From the IMG/VR virus record IMGVR_UViG_3300039210_000167, positions 1-42,934 of that record: DNA of 42,934 nucleotides; one strand, given 5' to 3'. Shown here in pieces: positions 1 through 11,304 of this stretch (positions are counted from its first letter, which is position 1; every line of letters starts with the position of its first letter). This stretch comes from a virus. The notes under the pieces were generated by a model. The model had not been told where the DNA came from. It saw only the letters and a list, made by a program, of their open reading frames with translations, and did no database searches. Made by a program: the position numbers and the translations under genes.

Positions 1-646
1 TGGTGCTTGAGAGCGCAAGTGTCAGGCCGACCTTACAGAGATTGTAGGGCCAGCCTTACAACCTTTGTAAGGCTGACCTTACAGGGCATGCAACTCTGGC
101 CTTGCAGGGCATGTAAGGCTGACCTTGCAGGGCATGTCAGGCTTGGCCCTACACCCGATCTTAATCTTCCGCCGGTTGACATTCAGGAATCCGTCGTCCA
201 CGTGCGCGGCGCGCGGTTCGTTGTTTAGTAGCGCCTCGGGTCTTGCGTTCCAGAGCAGATGTAAGGACTTTGTAAAGCGTGTGCTGAATCCTCCCAAGTG
301 GCGCCGTGCGTGTGCAACGTTTCGGTGGCAGGCAAACAACCACCTACTCCGGAGGATCTCACACACTCAACACACTCAGGGCGATACAGGCGAAGCGACT
401 GCCTCCCGAACCAAACGTCGCACACGGTCACACGCTGAAGGATGACCGCCTCGTTGAACCGCGACGAGTGCAAGCGTGAGCGCGCCTGAGTGACACAGGC
501 GCCCCCGATGTGGATCCCAGGACGTCCGGAGGTTAGGACGTCGAGTTCACAGCACACACCCACACAGGAGGTCACAAGGACGACACCGCACGGTACGGCA
601 CGTTCACACTCACACACGGACGACAATGACCTAGGAGGTCAATCTG
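1..646. other. Left-edge non-coding region
   Basis: No convincing gene lies in these 646 bases. The reading frames present have no ribosome site and unlikely composition. The first 160 bases are a tandem repeat array (listed separately). From about 355 to 620 the plus strand is rich in CAC/ACA runs, and a GGAGG at 567-571 is not followed by a start codon at usable distance. It probably holds regulatory sequence for the rightward genes or a replication or terminal element; no clear -35/-10 pair was found. Confidence 0.6.
21..158. repeat. Six tandem 23-bp imperfect repeats (iteron-like)
   Basis: Copies start at 21, 44, 67, 90, 113 and 136, an exact 23-bp period. The best copies (67-89 and 113-135) differ by one base, with core GGCTGACCTTRCAGGGCAT. 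The outer copies are more diverged. A 10-bp perfect inverted repeat, CAGCCTTACA (51-60) and TGTAAGGCTG (66-75), spans the junction of copies 2 and 3. Such arrays act as replication iterons or operator arrays; which applies here is unknown. Confidence 0.8.
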
Positions 647-2492: not shown

Positions 2493-2903
2493 ATGCGCAA
2501 GGTAATCGCAGTGCTCGTGGGGGGCCTTGTTTTGACCGCCCGCTCACGTGTGGCACCATGGATGGTCGTTGTCCTCATGGGGGCATCGGTAGCACACGCC
2601 GGGCACACGCCGGCGAGGCAGGACGCATCCATGACCCGGGCGCAGTTGACCGAGTACGTAGACAACCTCGTAGGGGGTCAGCGGCAGGACATGGAGCGCC
2701 TGGCAGTGCTAGAGCGTGCGTGTGCGCCGCGCTACACCGGTGGTGGTGTGACGCAGTGCGCCCAACCCGGGTTGGCTGAACAGCGCCTCAGCAAGGCGCT
2801 ACGTGCCTGCATGACGTCGAGCGCCTACCTTGGCGTGACCGAGGAGGACACATGGGCGCTCAAGGCACAGTGCATGGACGACTGGCAGCAAGCACGGCCG
2901 TAG
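2493..2903 (+). CDS. Putative exported Cys-containing protein, 136 aa
   Basis: The ATG at 2493 has AGGAGG 6 bases upstream (2481-2486), favouring it over 2475. The N-terminus has two hydrophobic stretches (about 3-15 and 22-35) around a short basic patch, ending SVAHAG, which resembles a signal-peptidase I site. The mature part has four cysteines (RACAP, TQCAQ, RACMT, AQCMD), consistent with two disulfides in an exported protein. No family is recognised. A cell-surface or superinfection role is only a guess. Confidence 0.65.
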   Translation: MRKVIAVLVGGLVLTARSRVAPWMVVVLMGASVAHAGHTPARQDASMTRAQLTEYVDNLVGGQRQDMERLAVLERACAPRYTGGGVTQCAQPGLAEQRLSKALRACMTSSAYLGVTEEDTWALKAQCMDDWQQARP

Positions 2904-3033
2904 GCGTGGTGTTCAGCACACGGCGGATCGGCACCTCACGTCGGCCCTGCTCTGACTCCCTCCCCTTTGGTAAAAGAGGATTGGGGTTATGGAGCATGTA
3001 TAGAGCGTGGGTTGTGAGTTAGAGAGATGATGG

Positions 3034-3099
3034 ATGGGCAGCGTAATGGCATACGTTGTAGGTGGCATAGAGCACATAGGTGTGCCATTACCTGCCCAT
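3034..3099. repeat. Inverted repeat with 17-bp arms
   Basis: ATGGGCAGCGTAATGGCA (3034-3051) pairs with TGCCATTACCTGCCCAT (3083-3099) with a single bulged base, enclosing a 31-base loop. It could be a structured RNA element, a protein-binding site or part of the packaging region. Confidence 0.75.
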
Positions 3100-3162
3100 G
3101 GTTTATGGATATGTTTATGCGAACGCAGATGAGAAAGGGATGGAAAGAGGAAGGGAGAACCC

Positions 3163-3179
3163 CAGGGGAGTCTCCCCTG
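3163..3179. other. Compact GC hairpin followed by A-run
   Basis: CAGGGGA (3163-3169) and TCCCCTG (3173-3179) form a perfect 7-bp stem with a 3-base loop; a run of A lies just to the right. Read on the minus strand the T-run would come before the stem, so it fits a terminator in neither direction. Confidence 0.5.
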
Positions 3180-3363
3180 CAAGAAAAAAAAAGAGCGGGG
3201 GCAAGGTCTGGACCTCCGTGCTGGTCTACAGCAGATATGGTATTCAACTGTCCTTAAGGGGTGACTGTGGTGTAAAGTACACCCTACAGCGTGAGGACGG
3301 GGTCGTGTAGGATCAGGGAGACGCGTCAATCACTTTTCACCCCTCTAGAGGAGGCCCAAAGAA

Positions 3364-3594
3364 ATGGCAGTTGTCCAGCTTCAGATCGCAAATCCGACAC
3401 AGACGGATGTCACCGTCGGAACGAACGTCGCAAGAGCCCGCCGCATCACGGTGCTGGCCATCGACAACACCACGGCCGATCTCTACACGTTCCTGGCCCA
3501 GGGTTGCGCTGCGACGAGCACGACTGGCTCGACCTTCGAGCAGCGTGAGCAGGAAGGTTGGCTCCTCTCCCGCGAGCAGCTCGACCCGGCGTAG
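3364..3594 (+). CDS. Small hypothetical protein at start of virion module, 76 aa
   Basis: A GAGGAGG site (3348-3354) precedes the ATG at 3364. The protein has a beta-rich pattern (MAVVQLQIANPT, ITVLAIDNT) followed by a Thr/Gln-rich segment and a LLSREQLDP tail. It opens the rightward structural gene cluster and could be a minor virion component, but no domain is recognised. Confidence 0.7.
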   Translation: MAVVQLQIANPTQTDVTVGTNVARARRITVLAIDNTTADLYTFLAQGCAATSTTGSTFEQREQEGWLLSREQLDPA

Positions 3595-3602
3595 GTGCAC
3601 TT

Positions 3603-3645
3603 GGGGGAGGTGGGCTAGGGTGTTGCCATCCGAATCCCCTCCCCC
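3603..3645. other. Stem-loop after 3364-3594 gene
   Basis: GGGGGAGG (3603-3610) and CCTCCCCC (3638-3645) are perfect complements with a 27-base loop. No T-run follows. It may attenuate transcription between the first and second genes of the module. Confidence 0.35.
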
Positions 3646-3698
3646 TCTCACTCCAACCGTTACTGCTGACCCGACCGTGAAGGAGTAGGGAGAGAGAG

Positions 3699-4136
3699 AT
3701 TTTTGACGAGGAATCCATCGAGGTTCGCCTCGCACGTGTAGAGGAGCAGATTCAGGGCGCGAAGCGGGAACTGTCAGTTGCGTTTGAGGCGTCGGAGAAG
3801 GCAATCGACAAGGCTGAGATTGCAACGGAAAAGCGCTTTGAGTCAGTCAACGAGTTCAGGGCGCAACTCTCGGATCAGACGAACACCTTCTTGCCGCGTG
3901 AGGTCTATGACACCAACCACAGGCAGTTTAGTGACCGGGTCGCAGCAATCGAGGTAGTGATCGCAACGACAGCAGGCAGGGAGAAGGGAATAGGTCTATC
4001 AGCTTCAACGCTCATAGCTGGACTGACTGTTCTTGCCGCTGTCATTACGACGGTAGTGGTTGTAGCGAACTACATTACGAGGTCGGTTCCGGGTCACACT
4101 CCAACGACAGTCACAGTTACGACTTCAGTGCCTTAG
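3699..4136 (+). CDS. Coiled-coil membrane protein with probable AUU start, 145 aa
   Basis: The frame is open from 3681 (after TGA at 3678-3680) with no ATG, GTG or TTG until a TTG at 3891, yet residues upstream of 3891 are clearly coding: acidic, heptad-like, with EVRLARVEEQ, EKRFESVNEFRAQ and PREVYDTNH, a combination familiar from a conserved actinophage coil protein. ATT at 3699 is followed by TTTGACGAGGAA (FDEE), matching the usual Met-Phe-Asp start of that family. GGGAG at 3688-3692 lies 6 bases upstream. One transmembrane helix (about 100-122) ends the coil. The role is unknown; a membrane-anchored or holin-accessory function is possible. A base error in the start codon is the alternative. 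Confidence 0.7.
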   Translation: MFDEESIEVRLARVEEQIQGAKRELSVAFEASEKAIDKAEIATEKRFESVNEFRAQLSDQTNTFLPREVYDTNHRQFSDRVAAIEVVIATTAGREKGIGLSASTLIAGLTVLAAVITTVVVVANYITRSVPGHTPTTVTVTTSVP

Positions 4137-4145
4137 GGAGGAAAG

Positions 4146-4475
4146 ATGATCTACAACATTGAGGATCTGCTCCTGGAGAAGGACCTCATGAGCCAGGACG
4201 AGTGGGACAGGGCAGCGCAGATGTTTGCTGACGGCAAGACGCCTCAGAAGATCGCTTCGGAGGTTGGAGCAACCGTGGTCTCAGGCCCAGTGCGCCCCGA
4301 GGCAGCCACTATGGTGACGATTCCCATGGATGAGTACCACGATCTGCTCGACAAGAAACTTCAGCTGCAGTCGCTGACGCCTGACACGAGCGCGCCAGCA
4401 GCGCCTGCAGATCCTGTGCCCGTAGCAGACCCGACGCAACCTCAGGCTCCTGCGGACGCTACTGTTGCCGTATAA
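4146..4475 (+). CDS. Hypothetical protein with Ala/Pro-rich tail, 109 aa
   Basis: GGGAGG lies just before the ATG. Residues 1-45 look like a small helical domain including DGKTPQKIASEVG, which resembles a helix-turn-helix. A middle segment (VTIPMDEYHDLLDKK) is helical, and the last 30 residues are a low-complexity Ala/Pro/Asp tail. It lies directly upstream of the capsid-like mini-ORF and terminase, so a packaging or head-related role is plausible but unproven. Confidence 0.65.
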   Translation: MIYNIEDLLLEKDLMSQDEWDRAAQMFADGKTPQKIASEVGATVVSGPVRPEAATMVTIPMDEYHDLLDKKLQLQSLTPDTSAPAAPADPVPVADPTQPQAPADATVAV

Positions 4476-4578
4476 CAACGTCATCTCACGTGATAAGGTT
4501 GCACCCCTACAGAAGGAGCAGACGATGCCGATTGCAACGCTCAAGGCAGGCATGAAGAAGGGCGGAAAGAAGAAGTAG
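4465..4578 (+). CDS. 37-codon ORF resembling the major capsid N-terminus
   Basis: From TTG 4465 this frame reads MPYNNVISRDKVAPLQKEQ, then MPIATLKAGM and a Lys-rich end. The capsid protein at 10157 begins MAYNNVISRSDVAALIPEQ, so YNNVISR is identical and V-A-x-L-x-x-E-Q is also kept. The part from ATG 4525 (17 codons) has its own AAGGAG (4513-4518), so the translated product may be only that peptide. Its stop abuts the terminase ATG (TAGATG), suggesting translational coupling. Either a capsid-gene relic from recombination or a short functional leader. Confidence 0.55.
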   Translation: MPYNNVISRDKVAPLQKEQTMPIATLKAGMKKGGKKK

Positions 4579-5148
4579 ATGGCGAAGACGGGTACACTTG
4601 CACTTACAGAGGCGGTCCTGCAGCAGTGCATTGACCTCGCTGGAAAGGGTGCAACGAATCAACTCCTTGCACGTGCAGCAGGTGTGCATCCTGATTCGTA
4701 CCAGACATGGTTGAAGAAGGGTCGTGAGGAGCCACACCCCGAGGAGGGTGAGGAACCGAGTATCTTCTACAGGTTGTTCAACGAGGTAGAGGATGCTCGT
4801 GCCCGGCTCGGTGTCCAGATGACGGAAAAGGTCATCCAGGCAGCGAACTCGGGTCAACCGAACACCTGGCAAGCAGCAATGACATTCTTGGAGCGTCGTT
4901 ACCCCGCAGACTGGGGCAAGCGCGACACGACGCGGATCGAAGGTGCGGACGGAGGCAACCTCCAGTTGCCAAATATCAACGTATTGGTGCTCAATGACTC
5001 AGATGCAAGAAGCGCCCACGAAGACCTACTTCGATCCCTCTCTGCTGCCGCTTCACCTAGCAGCGTCTCCCAGCGGACTCGCAATGCTGGACCACGGGAA
5101 ATCGGACCCGGAGACGGGGAACTGGTCGACGTCGTGGATTCACGCTAA
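4579..5148 (+). CDS. terS: Terminase small subunit
   Basis: 189 aa, starting directly after the upstream mini-ORF stop. Residues 8-45 form a helix-turn-helix (TNQLLARAAGVHPDSYQTWL) of the type by which small terminases recognise packaging sites. A central helical region (about 65-115) includes VQMTEKVIQAA and a YPADWGKRD segment typical of phage small terminases. The C-terminal about 50 codons overlap the large terminase frame by 155 bases. It would recognise phage DNA concatemers and recruit the large subunit for headful or cos packaging. Confidence 0.8.
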   Translation: MAKTGTLALTEAVLQQCIDLAGKGATNQLLARAAGVHPDSYQTWLKKGREEPHPEEGEEPSIFYRLFNEVEDARARLGVQMTEKVIQAANSGQPNTWQAAMTFLERRYPADWGKRDTTRIEGADGGNLQLPNINVLVLNDSDARSAHEDLLRSLSAAASPSSVSQRTRNAGPREIGPGDGELVDVVDSR

Positions 5149-6484
5149 GCATACAGCGTACCTGAACTCGATTCTGCTGGACCTCGCCTCGCGTAAGATC
5201 CGCGATGCAGGGTACGTTGGAGTCATCATTGAGGAGCCACCTCGTGTCGGCAAGTCTGAGCTCACTTCACACTACTTCCCTGCCTACTACCTGGGCACAT
5301 ACCCAGATGACCCGATCATGCTTGCTAGTTATGAGGCTGACTTCGCCGCCTCATGGGGTCGCAAGGTACGTGACACTGTGGACAAGTGGGGCAAATCTCT
5401 GTATGGGATTGAAGTGTCCAACTCCTCCTCGGCAGCGAATCGTTGGGCGCTGAAGGAGCACAAGGGTGGGATGATGACTGCAGGCGTCGGCGGTTCCTTC
5501 ACGGGACGCGGCGCGAAGTTGCTGCTAGTGGACGACCCGATCAAGAACGCGAAGGAAGCAGACTCAGAGACAATCCGCGACGCCCACTACTCGTGGTGGA
5601 AGACGACAGCGCGGACACGTCTTGAACCAGATGGCATCATCTGCCTGATTATGACGCGCTGGCATGAGGACGACCTTGCGGGGCGCCTCATCAAAGACAT
5701 GGAGGATCCTGAAGCTGATCAGTTCCTCGTCGTGCGCTTGCCGATGGTCGCGGAAGAACCAGACGAGGAGTACCCCGACCCCGACCCGCTTGGCAGAGTG
5801 CCTGGTGAGTTGCTGTTCCCTGAAAAGTTCGGGTGGGATGAAGTAACGCCGATCATGTCTCGACAGGACAGGACTTGGTTTGCGCTCTATCAGCAGCGGC
5901 CGACGACGATCCAGAACATGATGATTGACCCGGCCTGGTTTGAGGTCATTGATCGTCACCAGGTTCCTCCGTTGAAGAAGACGGTACGCAGGTGGGATAT
6001 GGCAGCGACAGAGGAAGGTGAGGGGTACGATCCTGACTACACAGTTGGTGCCAAGGTGGGATTGTCTGAGGACGGTTGTCTCTACATCCTGGACATCGCT
6101 AGATTCAGGAAGTCTCCAGGAGATGCTGAGCGTGCAATCAAGGGTGTTGCTGCAGCAGACAGCAAGCGGGTCAAGATCACCATGGAACAGGAGCCTGGAT
6201 CCTCGGGCAAGACGGTCATCCACAACTTCAGGCGCCGAGTTCTCCCGGGTTATGCGTTTAGAGGTGAACGCTCGACGGGCGATAAGATCCTCCGTGCCGA
6301 GATTCTTGCTTCACGCGCACAGCAAGGGGACGTGAAGGTAGTCAAGGCGCCGTGGAATTCGGAGTTCTTCTCGGAAGTCCGTAAGTTCCGCAAGGGTGCA
6401 GCGCACGACGATCAAGTCGACGCTGTGTCTGGTGCGCTAGATGACCTCACGAAGAAGGGATCTGGGAAGGTGGTGACCTGGTGA
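4994..6484 (+). CDS. terL: Terminase large subunit
   Basis: 496 aa from ATG 4994 (an alternative ATG is at 5003); the upstream frame back to 4943 lacks family character. The ATPase domain has a Walker A-like EEPPRVGKSE (about 80-89) and Walker B LLLVDDP. The nuclease domain has RRWDMAAT and a C-terminal AHDDQVDA with the acidic residues expected to bind metal. As in other packaging motors it would translocate DNA into the prohead through the portal and cut the concatemer. It begins inside the small terminase gene and its stop overlaps the next GTG. Confidence 0.93.
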   Translation: MTQMQEAPTKTYFDPSLLPLHLAASPSGLAMLDHGKSDPETGNWSTSWIHAKHTAYLNSILLDLASRKIRDAGYVGVIIEEPPRVGKSELTSHYFPAYYLGTYPDDPIMLASYEADFAASWGRKVRDTVDKWGKSLYGIEVSNSSSAANRWALKEHKGGMMTAGVGGSFTGRGAKLLLVDDPIKNAKEADSETIRDAHYSWWKTTARTRLEPDGIICLIMTRWHEDDLAGRLIKDMEDPEADQFLVVRLPMVAEEPDEEYPDPDPLGRVPGELLFPEKFGWDEVTPIMSRQDRTWFALYQQRPTTIQNMMIDPAWFEVIDRHQVPPLKKTVRRWDMAATEEGEGYDPDYTVGAKVGLSEDGCLYILDIARFRKSPGDAERAIKGVAAADSKRVKITMEQEPGSSGKTVIHNFRRRVLPGYAFRGERSTGDKILRAEILASRAQQGDVKVVKAPWNSEFFSEVRKFRKGAAHDDQVDAVSGALDDLTKKGSGKVVTW

Positions 6485-7371
6485 CCGACTTTATCACCAG
6501 CCAGAATCCGTTTTCTCCAGGTAATCTGCCCGTCAAGTGGAAGGATCTGGGCGATGGCACCTATGCTCACGGTGTAGCATCACTTCCGCTTCCCACGGGT
6601 GCAGCGGCAGAGCACATCACTGCAGCATCCTTCCACTCAGTTCAGTTGACTACGGGTGCAGCGTTCTACGACGCCCGCCAGATTCGCGCACTCACCTCAG
6701 CAGATATCGTCTCAGCAGTTCAGAGTGGCACATGGACGGTCGCACAAGGGACGCCGCCTTGGCAGGAGAACCTCACACAGGTTGGTGGGTCAGCGATCAC
6801 GCTGAAGGCACTGCCTACAGGAGGATTGGGCCTTGCAGCTATTCCTGTGACGCACAATGCAATCCAGTTGCTCACGTACACCTATGGTGTGCGCGTGCTT
6901 GCAACAGGAACACTGACTGCGAGTACAGCGAAGGCGCTCTTCTCAATTGAGCATGCAGCGACTTCGACTAAGACAGTTAAGATTAGGCGGATCCTCGTGT
7001 CTGGGCGCCAGACAACTGCTCTTGCAGGATCTCTTGACATTCAGGTGACCCGTGGTACAGCAGCGTCAACTGCAGGAACAGCAATAACCGCAGGCTTGCG
7101 GAGCGCTGGGGACGCTGCAGCAGAGTGCGTTGTGAAAACGCTCCCAACGATCACAGCAGCGTCTATTCAGGATTATCTGCCCTTAACTGCAGCTCCGTCT
7201 GCAGTAGCACAGGCAGTTCCACAGACGACTATCTTTGACTGGCAGGAGGGCGGCGAGACAAAGGCCTGGACACTAAGAGCGGGTATACTTGAGACACTTG
7301 TCTTCAATGTTATCTCAGATGCTGCTCAGGCGTACAACCTTACTATCCACTTGACAGTAACGGAGGAATAA
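6481..7371 (+). CDS. Putative virion structural protein, 296 aa
   Basis: GTG start overlapping the terminase stop by 4 bases. It is Ala/Thr/Val-rich with alternating beta patterns and no charged linker, as in phage head-fibre or decoration proteins. The first 45 residues (WKDLGDGTYAHGVAS) resemble the start seen in several phage surface proteins. The C-terminal half (about 150-296) looks like a compact beta-sandwich. Placement between terminase and portal supports a virion role, but the exact location on the particle is not known. Confidence 0.65.
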   Translation: MTDFITSQNPFSPGNLPVKWKDLGDGTYAHGVASLPLPTGAAAEHITAASFHSVQLTTGAAFYDARQIRALTSADIVSAVQSGTWTVAQGTPPWQENLTQVGGSAITLKALPTGGLGLAAIPVTHNAIQLLTYTYGVRVLATGTLTASTAKALFSIEHAATSTKTVKIRRILVSGRQTTALAGSLDIQVTRGTAASTAGTAITAGLRSAGDAAAECVVKTLPTITAASIQDYLPLTAAPSAVAQAVPQTTIFDWQEGGETKAWTLRAGILETLVFNVISDAAQAYNLTIHLTVTEE

Positions 7372-7949: not shown

Positions 7950-9470
7950 GTGCCTGACGATCTGAATCTGCTCTGGGCCGTCTCTCAGTACCAGTCGACC
8001 CCGAGGCGGGTTCAGATGGCGAACGCCTGCAAGTACTACGACGGTGACCAGCGCATGAAGTTGGCAACGGAGAAGTTCAAGAACGTCTTCGGCCACATCT
8101 TCCGCGACTTCAACGACAACCTCTGTCCTGCTGTTGTCGATTCACTTGCTGAGCGTCTTTCAGTCAACGGGTGGCGCTCAAACCAGGCGACAATCGACAT
8201 CCAGGATGTGCCAGGCACTGCACTTCCAGGTATCCCGGCAAGGCAGAGGGTGATCGTTAATGATCCAATGGGTCAGGCGGCGCAGAACACCTGGAACGAA
8301 AACGAGATGGATGCTCGTGCGAATGAGGTCCACACAGAAGCAGTTAAGGCTGGAAACTCGTATGTTCTTGTCTGGCCTGACAAGGACCTCGATGTCTGCT
8401 TCTATCCACAGACAGACGCTGAGATGGTCATCCAGTACGACGCGAACTCTGTAGGCGTGATCTCTCGTGCTGCAAAGATCTGGTGGTTGCCTGACTCCAA
8501 GATGTGGCGCCTCAACGTCTACCTGCCTGACAGGATCTACAAGTGGATCTCAGGCACTGCACAACCCAATGGGATCTCAGAGTCGGTGAACGATTGGGTG
8601 CCCTTCAACGACCCGCAGACGGGTCCAATGGTCGTGAACCCCTACGGCATCGTACCTGTCTTCCACTTCGCCAACAAGAAGGTCTACAAGCCAGGCATCT
8701 CAGAACTCAAGGACGTAATGCCGATTCAGGACGCTCTGAATAAGAGCATCATTGATATGCTTGTAGCGATGGAGTTCGCAGCGTACAGGCAGCGCTACAT
8801 CATCGGCATTGAGGTTGAGACAGACGAGACAACAGGTGAACCTGTAGACAGCAATGTCAAGGGTTACGGTGCTGACAGGATGATGACTATTGGCGGTGAC
8901 AAGAGTGAGATCGAGGTAGGCGAGTTTGGTGCTACTGACCTCACTCAGTTCCTGTCAGTGTCAGACAAGTTTCGTTCAGAGTGTGCTCGCGTGTCAGGCA
9001 CTCCTCTGCATTACTTCTTCATCACCTCAGGTGACTTCCCATCAGGTGAAGCAATCAAGTCGGCAGAAGGAAGGTTCGTCGGCAAGATTGAGAAGCGGCA
9101 ACTCGACTGGGGTCGCGTCTGGGGACGGGCAATGGCCTTTGCCCAGCAGGTTGAGGGTGTCCTTCCAGACGACTACCAGATCGCACCGCTGTGGACCGAT
9201 CCTCAGCCACACAGTGAAGCTGAGATGGCAGACGTGGGTGTTAAGAAGCGTGCAATCGGCGTTTCTCGCTCACAGCTTCTGAAGGAGATGGGCTACGACG
9301 ACGACACCATCGACAGGATGCTGCAAGAGTCGGATGCCTACGAGGCAGCAAAGGCAGCGTGGACAGCAGAGGGCAGGGGACCGAACCCCGCTGAATCTGC
9401 ACCGCCTGCACCTGGTGGAGCATCGTCTACTGCTCGTGCGAACGCAACAGCAGCACGCTCAGGGCAGTAG
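7950..9470 (+). CDS. Portal protein (SPP1 gp6-like)
   Basis: 506 aa, GTG start with TAGGAGG 6 bases upstream. The length and the pattern YYDGDQRMKLA, NLCPAVVDSLAERLSVNGW, YVLVWPD, PYGIVPVFHF, DALNKSIIDMLVAMEF and HYFFITSGDFPSGEA match the SPP1-type portal family. A dodecamer of this protein would form the head vertex channel for DNA entry and exit. The last 40 residues are low-complexity Ala/Pro. It is preceded by terminase and followed by scaffold and capsid, the expected order. Confidence 0.92.
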   Translation: MPDDLNLLWAVSQYQSTPRRVQMANACKYYDGDQRMKLATEKFKNVFGHIFRDFNDNLCPAVVDSLAERLSVNGWRSNQATIDIQDVPGTALPGIPARQRVIVNDPMGQAAQNTWNENEMDARANEVHTEAVKAGNSYVLVWPDKDLDVCFYPQTDAEMVIQYDANSVGVISRAAKIWWLPDSKMWRLNVYLPDRIYKWISGTAQPNGISESVNDWVPFNDPQTGPMVVNPYGIVPVFHFANKKVYKPGISELKDVMPIQDALNKSIIDMLVAMEFAAYRQRYIIGIEVETDETTGEPVDSNVKGYGADRMMTIGGDKSEIEVGEFGATDLTQFLSVSDKFRSECARVSGTPLHYFFITSGDFPSGEAIKSAEGRFVGKIEKRQLDWGRVWGRAMAFAQQVEGVLPDDYQIAPLWTDPQPHSEAEMADVGVKKRAIGVSRSQLLKEMGYDDDTIDRMLQESDAYEAAKAAWTAEGRGPNPAESAPPAPGGASSTARANATAARSGQ

Positions 9471-9551: not shown

Positions 9552-10130
9552 GTGAGTAGAGATCTTACCCGCTTGATTCACTTCCAGGCCAACGAGGATG
9601 GTAGTGAGGATGGCGGAACCGGCGATGCAGCAGCCCAGGAGGCTGCACGTGTTGCTGCTGCCCAGGAGGCGGAACGGCAGGCCCAGGAGGCCGCCGCAGA
9701 CAAGGATACTGTGCCGAAAAGCGAGCACTCAAAAGTGCAGCGCGAGGCCCAGAACCTGAGGCAGCGACTCAAAGCACTAGAGGATGCTGCTCTGTCCGAC
9801 AGCGAGAAGATCGCCAAGGAACTCGATGAACTGAAGACGACAATGAGCACCAAGGATGCAGAGGTTCGTTCTCTGCGTGTCGAGGTTCTTGCTGCACGTG
9901 CAGGCATCGTAGATCCCGAAGCAGCAGCGAAGTTGCTCGACTGGGAGGCGCTCGGAGACGACGCTGACAATCCCAAGAAGCTCGAGGCAGCGCTGAAGCA
10001 ACTCGTGAAGGACAAGCCGTACTTGGCTGGAACGGCCCCTGGTGGGTCTGACGGTGGCGCAGGAGACGGGTCAGGTGCCGAGATCCTGGACATGAATGCC
10101 GCGATCCGCAGAGCAGCGGGTCGAGGTTAA
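9552..10130 (+). CDS. Scaffolding protein
   Basis: 192 aa, GTG start with AAGGAG upstream. It is strongly acidic and helical, with Ala/Glu/Gln repeats (residues 15-50), a long coiled coil (about 58-110) and a Gly/Asp-rich linker before a conserved-looking C-terminus (ILDMNAAIRRAAGRG). This composition and its position directly before the capsid gene are typical of scaffolds that direct prohead assembly and leave before maturation. Confidence 0.82.
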   Translation: MSRDLTRLIHFQANEDGSEDGGTGDAAAQEAARVAAAQEAERQAQEAAADKDTVPKSEHSKVQREAQNLRQRLKALEDAALSDSEKIAKELDELKTTMSTKDAEVRSLRVEVLAARAGIVDPEAAAKLLDWEALGDDADNPKKLEAALKQLVKDKPYLAGTAPGGSDGGAGDGSGAEILDMNAAIRRAAGRG

Positions 10131-10156: not shown

Positions 10157-11098
10157 ATGGCTTATAACAACGTGATTAGCCGCAGTGACGTTGCTGCGCT
10201 AATCCCGGAACAAGTCGCTGACTCAGTCGTCCAGTCCGCGGTCACGGAAAGCGCGGCCCTGTCGCTCTTCCCCCGTGTGCCGATGAGTTCAGCGCAGACC
10301 CGCATGCCGGTTCTCGCTGCTCTCCCCATCGCCTATTTCGTGAACGGCGATACGGGCCTCAAGCAGACGACGGAGCAGCAGTGGGCAAACCGCTACCTGA
10401 ACGTCGAGGAGATCGCCACAATCGTTCCGATCCCGGAGAACGTATTGGATGACACCTCCTACGACGTCTGGGGCGCGATCATGCCTCGCATCGCTGAAGC
10501 TGTTGGGCGTACGCTCGACGCAGCGATCTTCTTCGGCACCAACAAGCCCGGTTCGTGGCCTGCAGACATCGCCTCGGCGGTCGTCGCTGCAGGTAACTTC
10601 TACACCCGCGGCACGAACGCTGCTGCAGCAGGTGGTATTGCAGAGGACGTCAACCAGCTCATGGGGTTGGTCGAGTCGGACGGCTTCGCGGTCAACGGGT
10701 TCGTAACCCGGACAACCTACAAGGCACGTCTGCGCTCCGCACGTGACACGACCGGGCAGAGGTTGCTCGACGTGAACGGCGACGTCTCCACAATCGACGG
10801 CGGTCGTGTCGTCTACTCGATGCCGGGTCTCTGGCCGACGGGCACGGGTGCGGCAGAAGTGTTCGCCGGCGACTGGACGCAGGCGATGCTGGGTGTCCGG
10901 AAGGACATGACCTACAAGATCCTGGACCAGGCAGTTATCCAGGATAACACCGGTGCAATCATCTACAACCTGGCACAGCAGGACATGGTGGCAATGCGCG
11001 TTACGGCCCGCTTCGCGTACTCGATCGCTAACCCGATCAACTACGAGAACCTGGTCGACGCAACTCGCTTCCCGTTCGCTGCCCTCAGGTCGCCGTAA
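10157..11098 (+). CDS. Major capsid protein (HK97 fold)
   Basis: 313 aa. The pattern YNNVISRSDVAALIPEQV, PVLAALPIAYFVNGDTGLKQ, WANRYLNVEEIATIVPIPE and the C-terminal MRVTARFAYSIANPINYE is characteristic of HK97-fold capsids of siphoviruses. It has higher GC and more optimal-looking codons than its neighbours, as expected for an abundant protein. The N-terminal arm is partly duplicated at 4465. Scaffold precedes it and connector genes follow. Confidence 0.93.
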   Translation: MAYNNVISRSDVAALIPEQVADSVVQSAVTESAALSLFPRVPMSSAQTRMPVLAALPIAYFVNGDTGLKQTTEQQWANRYLNVEEIATIVPIPENVLDDTSYDVWGAIMPRIAEAVGRTLDAAIFFGTNKPGSWPADIASAVVAAGNFYTRGTNAAAAGGIAEDVNQLMGLVESDGFAVNGFVTRTTYKARLRSARDTTGQRLLDVNGDVSTIDGGRVVYSMPGLWPTGTGAAEVFAGDWTQAMLGVRKDMTYKILDQAVIQDNTGAIIYNLAQQDMVAMRVTARFAYSIANPINYENLVDATRFPFAALRSP

Positions 11099-11103
11099 GC
11101 TAG

Positions 11104-11304
11104 ATGGCGAATACCGGGCCTCCTTGGTACGCTTCTGACTCAGCAGAGGCAGCACGTGCGATGGTTGAGTTGCAACACAGACCTCGCCGTGCTGCCTTTC
11201 GTTCTCAGATGCAAGCGCTCCTTAGAGGCAACCCAGCACGTGCTCTGTCCGTTCGTCAATCGTTCATGCCGTTGAAACGGCACGGAGGTGATCTGAACCA
11301 GTGA
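11104..11304 (+). CDS. Small basic hypothetical protein, 66 aa
   Basis: ATG 5 bases after the capsid stop, without an obvious ribosome site, so it may rely on coupling. It is Arg/Gln/Ala-rich (RPRRAAFRSQMQALLRGNPA) and could bind nucleic acid or the capsid interior. It overlaps the next gene by 4 bases. Confidence 0.55.
   Translation: MANTGPPWYASDSAEAARAMVELQHRPRRAAFRSQMQALLRGNPARALSVRQSFMPLKRHGGDLNQ

Follow-up and report, generated by a model that had tools for sequence, protein, structure and literature searches.

A short open reading frame before the small terminase gene of a phage probably carries a captured patch of a capsid gene 5′ end

Gene fragments at mosaic junctions are known in tailed phage genomes. 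HK97-fold major capsid proteins (PF05065, Phage_capsid) of the clade considered here share an N-arm motif near their start, and the solved relative 8eci reads PYNNLTSR at residues 13–20. In P22, the coat N-arm can serve as a scaffold-binding site (PMC9965877). The viral DNA analyzed here, hereafter the window, comprises 42,934 nucleotides (positions 1 to 42,934 of IMG/VR record IMGVR_UViG_3300039210_000167) and contains, directly upstream of the terminase small subunit gene (terS), a 37-codon open reading frame (ORF) whose residues 2–9 read PYNNVISR and match the N-arm motif of this capsid clade. Unlike the capsid proteins, this ORF continues into a Lys/Gly-rich tail, with no capsid fold domain of the PF05065 type after the motif. 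The features of the window on which the argument depends are the following.

3364–3594, plus strand: small gene labeled ANPT in this analysis (E = 9.4e-26 to a profile built from capsid-adjacent copies only)
4146–4475, plus strand: 109-aa ORF without family assignment, upstream of the 37-codon ORF (strong coding frame)
4465–4578, plus strand: 37-codon ORF LPYNNVISRDKVAPLQKEQTMPIATLKAGMKKGGKKK, TTG start and TAG stop (reading frame and codon usage)
4466–4490, plus strand: 25-bp putative capsid-gene 5′ patch, codons 1–9 of a capsid gene (blastn to the capsid starts of related loci L101 and L015; profile bits)
4492–4524, plus strand: codons 10–20 of the ORF, not capsid-like by profile, containing the Shine-Dalgarno (SD)-like AGAAGGAG (profile score and codon usage)
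4525–4578, plus strand: 17-codon ORF MPIATLKAGMKKGGKKK in frame with the 37-codon ORF, Lys/Gly-rich tail (SD pairing and codon usage)
4579–5148, plus strand: terS (phrog_4102, E = 7.3e-21)
10157–11098, plus strand: the phage's own major capsid protein gene (phrog_10, E = 1.4e-52; PF05065; solved relative 8eci)
11104–11304, plus strand: gene located after ANPT in relatives and here immediately after the capsid gene (E = 6.4e-5 against a profile of the relatives' genes)

The ORF has the coordinates, frame and peptide reported in the first-pass annotation, with TTG as its start codon; residue 1 is methionine only if this TTG is used. As that annotation also described, the tail abuts the small terminase gene, the TAG at 4576–4578 adjoining the terS ATG at 4579. 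At the other end, the last 11 nt of the 109-aa ORF are shared with the TTG frame. The TTG at 4465 has no ribosome-binding site, whereas the in-frame ATG at 4525 has a likely one and would yield a 17-residue product (predicted SD pairing of −3.2 versus −8.0 kcal/mol). The 37-codon ORF has no Pfam or PHROG match, and no Rfam match was obtained for its region. Tiny ORFs of 13–18 codons with a Lys/Gly-rich tail that abut or overlap the next gene start are also present in three related loci (L016, L039 and L068), and in L039 and L068 they run straight into the ATGGCG of the next gene. These ORFs, however, follow ANPT genes downstream of the capsid gene and do not precede terS, and the likeness is one of low complexity that may be convergent.

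Several other observations concern the surroundings. The 109-aa ORF has a possible, sub-threshold helix-turn-helix and a Pro/Ala-rich tail, and relatives of it were not found. With the start listed for terL (GTG 4943), about 200 nt (4943–5148) would be common to terL and terS; terL probably begins further downstream. A 296-aa ORF without a family match lies between terL and the portal gene (6481–7371). The left end of the window (1–140) carries imperfect tandem repeats (TGTAAGGCTGACCTT..CAGGGCATG). A second contig, IMGVR_UViG_3300011997_000010, represents nearly the same phage and holds both the last 77 bases of the window (contig positions 3738–3814) and its start (contig position 8712). From these positions, the window seems to lack about 4.9 kb between its ends, which gives a probable genome length of about 47.8 kb.

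To locate the capsid-like signal we used a profile of 53 N-termini of related capsids, the phage's own capsid not being among them. All of the signal is confined to residues 2–9 of the ORF, which score 30.4 bits against 29.4 for the phage's own capsid. Residues 10–20 score −0.5 bits, against 32.7 for the own capsid over the same residues. The matching spacing claimed in the first-pass annotation is therefore overstated over 19 residues. The ALIPE(E/D)V segment of the capsids (residues 14–20, leading into the first helix) is absent from the ORF. None of the 53 capsids has Q16, K17 or T20; in them position 16 is always I, V or M, and position 17 is P in 52. Q16 and K17 coincide with AGAAGGAG; that is, an SD-like sequence occupies the place where capsids encode I/V-P. 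In an AlphaFold2 model of the phage's own capsid, residues 1–13 have no predicted secondary structure and the first ten are modeled with modest confidence (mean pLDDT of 66), consistent with a flexible arm tip; a helix spans residues 18–31.

At the DNA level, a blastn search with positions 4465–4600 in related loci totaling about 1.1 Mb returned two capsid starts as its top matches, both in register: L101 with 24 of 25 nt identical (E = 6e-5) and L015 with 23 of 25 (E = 7e-4). Many of the next-ranked matches are capsid starts as well. L101 had been retrieved using a pattern taken from the patch itself; L015 had not. The homology spans only 25 bp, and the best candidate donor capsids match codons 1–9 only, none with a longer match being found. 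Over the first 27 nt, the phage's own capsid gene is identical at 18 positions, compared with 24 and 23 in the two other phages. The patch is thus nearer to the capsids of other phages than to that of its own genome, which argues against a recent self-duplication; these nucleotide comparisons suggest that it was probably imported from another capsid lineage and not left by the phage's own capsid gene.

Among the records searched, the ORF is restricted to this phage lineage. When the N-arm profile was run over 35 records, no strong second capsid-like copy appeared outside the window and the near-identical partner contig, and G018 gave the single further extra match, a weak one (12.8 bits). The corresponding place in relatives is without the ORF: nothing similar was seen in the regions upstream of terS in L004–L008, L015 (0.2 kb only), L016, L044 and L071. 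A degenerate peptide pattern searched in viral_contigs matched only the near-identical contig, and its one match in genome_contigs was an unrelated protein. By tblastn, the 37-codon ORF, the 109-aa ORF, terS and ANPT had no match in any phage record. An assembly error was rejected, since a second genotype of the same phage has an identical sequence across the ORF.

The capsid neighborhood of this phage is itself rearranged. In about 15 relatives, the capsid gene has ANPT immediately or a short distance downstream, and a gene of about 60–90 codons usually comes next. In the window ANPT is missing from that place and sits 0.9 kb upstream of the 37-codon ORF. Members of the family (window 3364–3594; L012, L014–L021 and L068) share a conserved NP(T/N)...(V/I)T start, sometimes in two tandem copies, and are without a convincing counterpart in Pfam, PHROG or the phage records. 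In a tblastx comparison of positions 2800–4600, no capsid-locus remnants besides ANPT could be distinguished from low-complexity matches. The displacement of ANPT may be linked to the capsid-start patch. However, ANPT is upstream of terS in L005 as well, where no such ORF is present, and the relocation may therefore be unrelated to the patch.

Our preferred reading, to which we assign a probability of roughly 0.6, is that the ORF is a chimera at a mosaic junction that contains a captured patch of a capsid gene 5′ end and now acts, at most, as a leader for terS. Its first nine or so codons would come from the 5′ end of the capsid gene of a related phage, presumably through recombination with a co-infecting relative, and would have been joined where the small genes upstream meet the terminase module. 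The remainder would be a short in-frame tail with its Lys/Gly-rich end. ATG 4525 would be the main start, and the purine-rich codons together with the abutting stop and start codons may couple translation to terS, for which the ORF would be a leader at most. The recombination scar proposed in the first-pass annotation gains support because the DNA is homologous to foreign capsid starts, a gene normally located elsewhere, because ANPT has been relocated upstream and because the ORF is absent from relatives. The source, however, is probably another phage's capsid gene and not the phage's own, and a former capsid locus upstream of terS would be speculative. The locus resembles known mosaic-junction fragments in being a short foreign gene piece where two modules meet, with a displaced gene in the same region; it differs from them in keeping an in-register start codon and an open, coding-like frame.

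That frame is one argument for a second explanation, in which the ORF encodes a functional 37-residue microprotein. Such a product would combine the capsid N-arm tip with a basic tail, would be translationally coupled to the upstream ORF, and would either compete with capsid subunits or nucleate them, acting at the scaffold (encoded at 9552–10130), the portal or the terminase. The codon usage of the whole frame, non-capsid part included, falls at the 90th percentile of on-frame windows, with none of 1089 off-frame windows as good; the 17-codon ORF reaches the 97th percentile, and codons 10–20 are also typical of the phage's genes in frame. This usage suggests that the frame is translated, or was so recently, although a gene-derived fragment would show the same usage over codons 2–9. 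Over codons 10–20, 5 of 10 residues are additionally shared with the capsid of the phage itself (p = 1.5e-4). Together with the coding-like usage of these codons, this counts against plain debris, which needs neither. The protein identity to the phage's own capsid has also been kept although 7 of the 12 shared residues differ in codon, and in P22 the scaffold attaches to the N-arm of the coat protein (PMC9965877), which makes it plausible that a peptide resembling the arm acts at this site. Conversely, capsid residues 16 and 17 are replaced exactly at the ribosome-binding sequence, the TTG is without an SD, there is no conservation beyond this phage, and a foreign donor explains the synonymous differences equally well. 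We therefore consider a functional microprotein unlikely. Somewhat less likely still is the more specific proposal that a 37-residue peptide of arm tip and basic tail, made just before terminase, tunes head assembly or packaging by arm mimicry; a working mimic of the capsid arm is less likely than captured-patch debris. Two further ideas were examined and rejected. A programmed frameshift from the 109-aa ORF into the 37-codon ORF does not fit, as the frame does not open before 4426 and GTA TAA was not seen to offer a plausible slip site. An RNA element common to the ORF and the capsid start does not fit either, as the two sites use different synonymous codons and folding of the region is weaker than that of shuffled sequences (z = +2.3).

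Alternatively, the 5′ end of the phage's own capsid gene could have been partially duplicated in situ and then have diverged under selection on the peptide. The own capsid ORF, which begins MAYNNVISRSDVAALIPEQ at position 10157 and thus 5,692 nt from the 37-codon ORF (the roughly 5.7 kb previously noted), is the best protein match: 12 of 18 residues are identical when the start residue is excluded, among them V12, A13 and Q19, which are less common. YNNVISR is contiguous, in agreement with the seven identical residues in a row reported earlier. The corresponding DNA identity is 34 of 57 nt. The exchange between TCA and AGC for the shared Ser, however, requires several changes at one codon. With the first 27 nt nearer to the capsids of other phages, we regard an in-situ duplication as improbable.

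The similarity itself is confirmed to be real. By chance, a window is expected to contain about 7e-7 matches to the capsid N-terminus when identity is counted and about 1e-6 when the profile is used. In 200 simulated windows the best match was 9 of 18. In 65 real loci, where 1,150 gene N-termini were compared with their own six frames, the scatter ends at 10–11 of 18, and matches of at least 13 of 18 resemble paralogues or tandem repeats. An all-against-all comparison within the window is less decisive, the pair of ORF and capsid (E = 4.4e-4) being only modestly ahead of chance pairs (6.6e-4). The case therefore rests on the capsid family, the register and the DNA evidence, and not on the pairwise match alone. 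A short coding stretch that by convergence or chance happens to read PYNNVISR would gain from the possibility that many windows had been screened before and perhaps everything compared with everything, for which a rough, uncomputed estimate for any-versus-any 18-mers in six frames is on the order of one such match; it is nevertheless very improbable, given that no further non-capsid site exceeds 8 bits in 1.1 Mb, that the match is in register with a start codon, that P2 agrees with the capsid family where the phage's own capsid differs, and that capsid starts rank first among the DNA matches.

If the ORF is a scar, it would be a readable trace of head-gene shuffling between phages, alongside the displaced capsid-neighbor gene. 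A mimic, in contrast, would amount to a tiny regulator of capsid assembly encoded by the phage itself, and directly testable as such.
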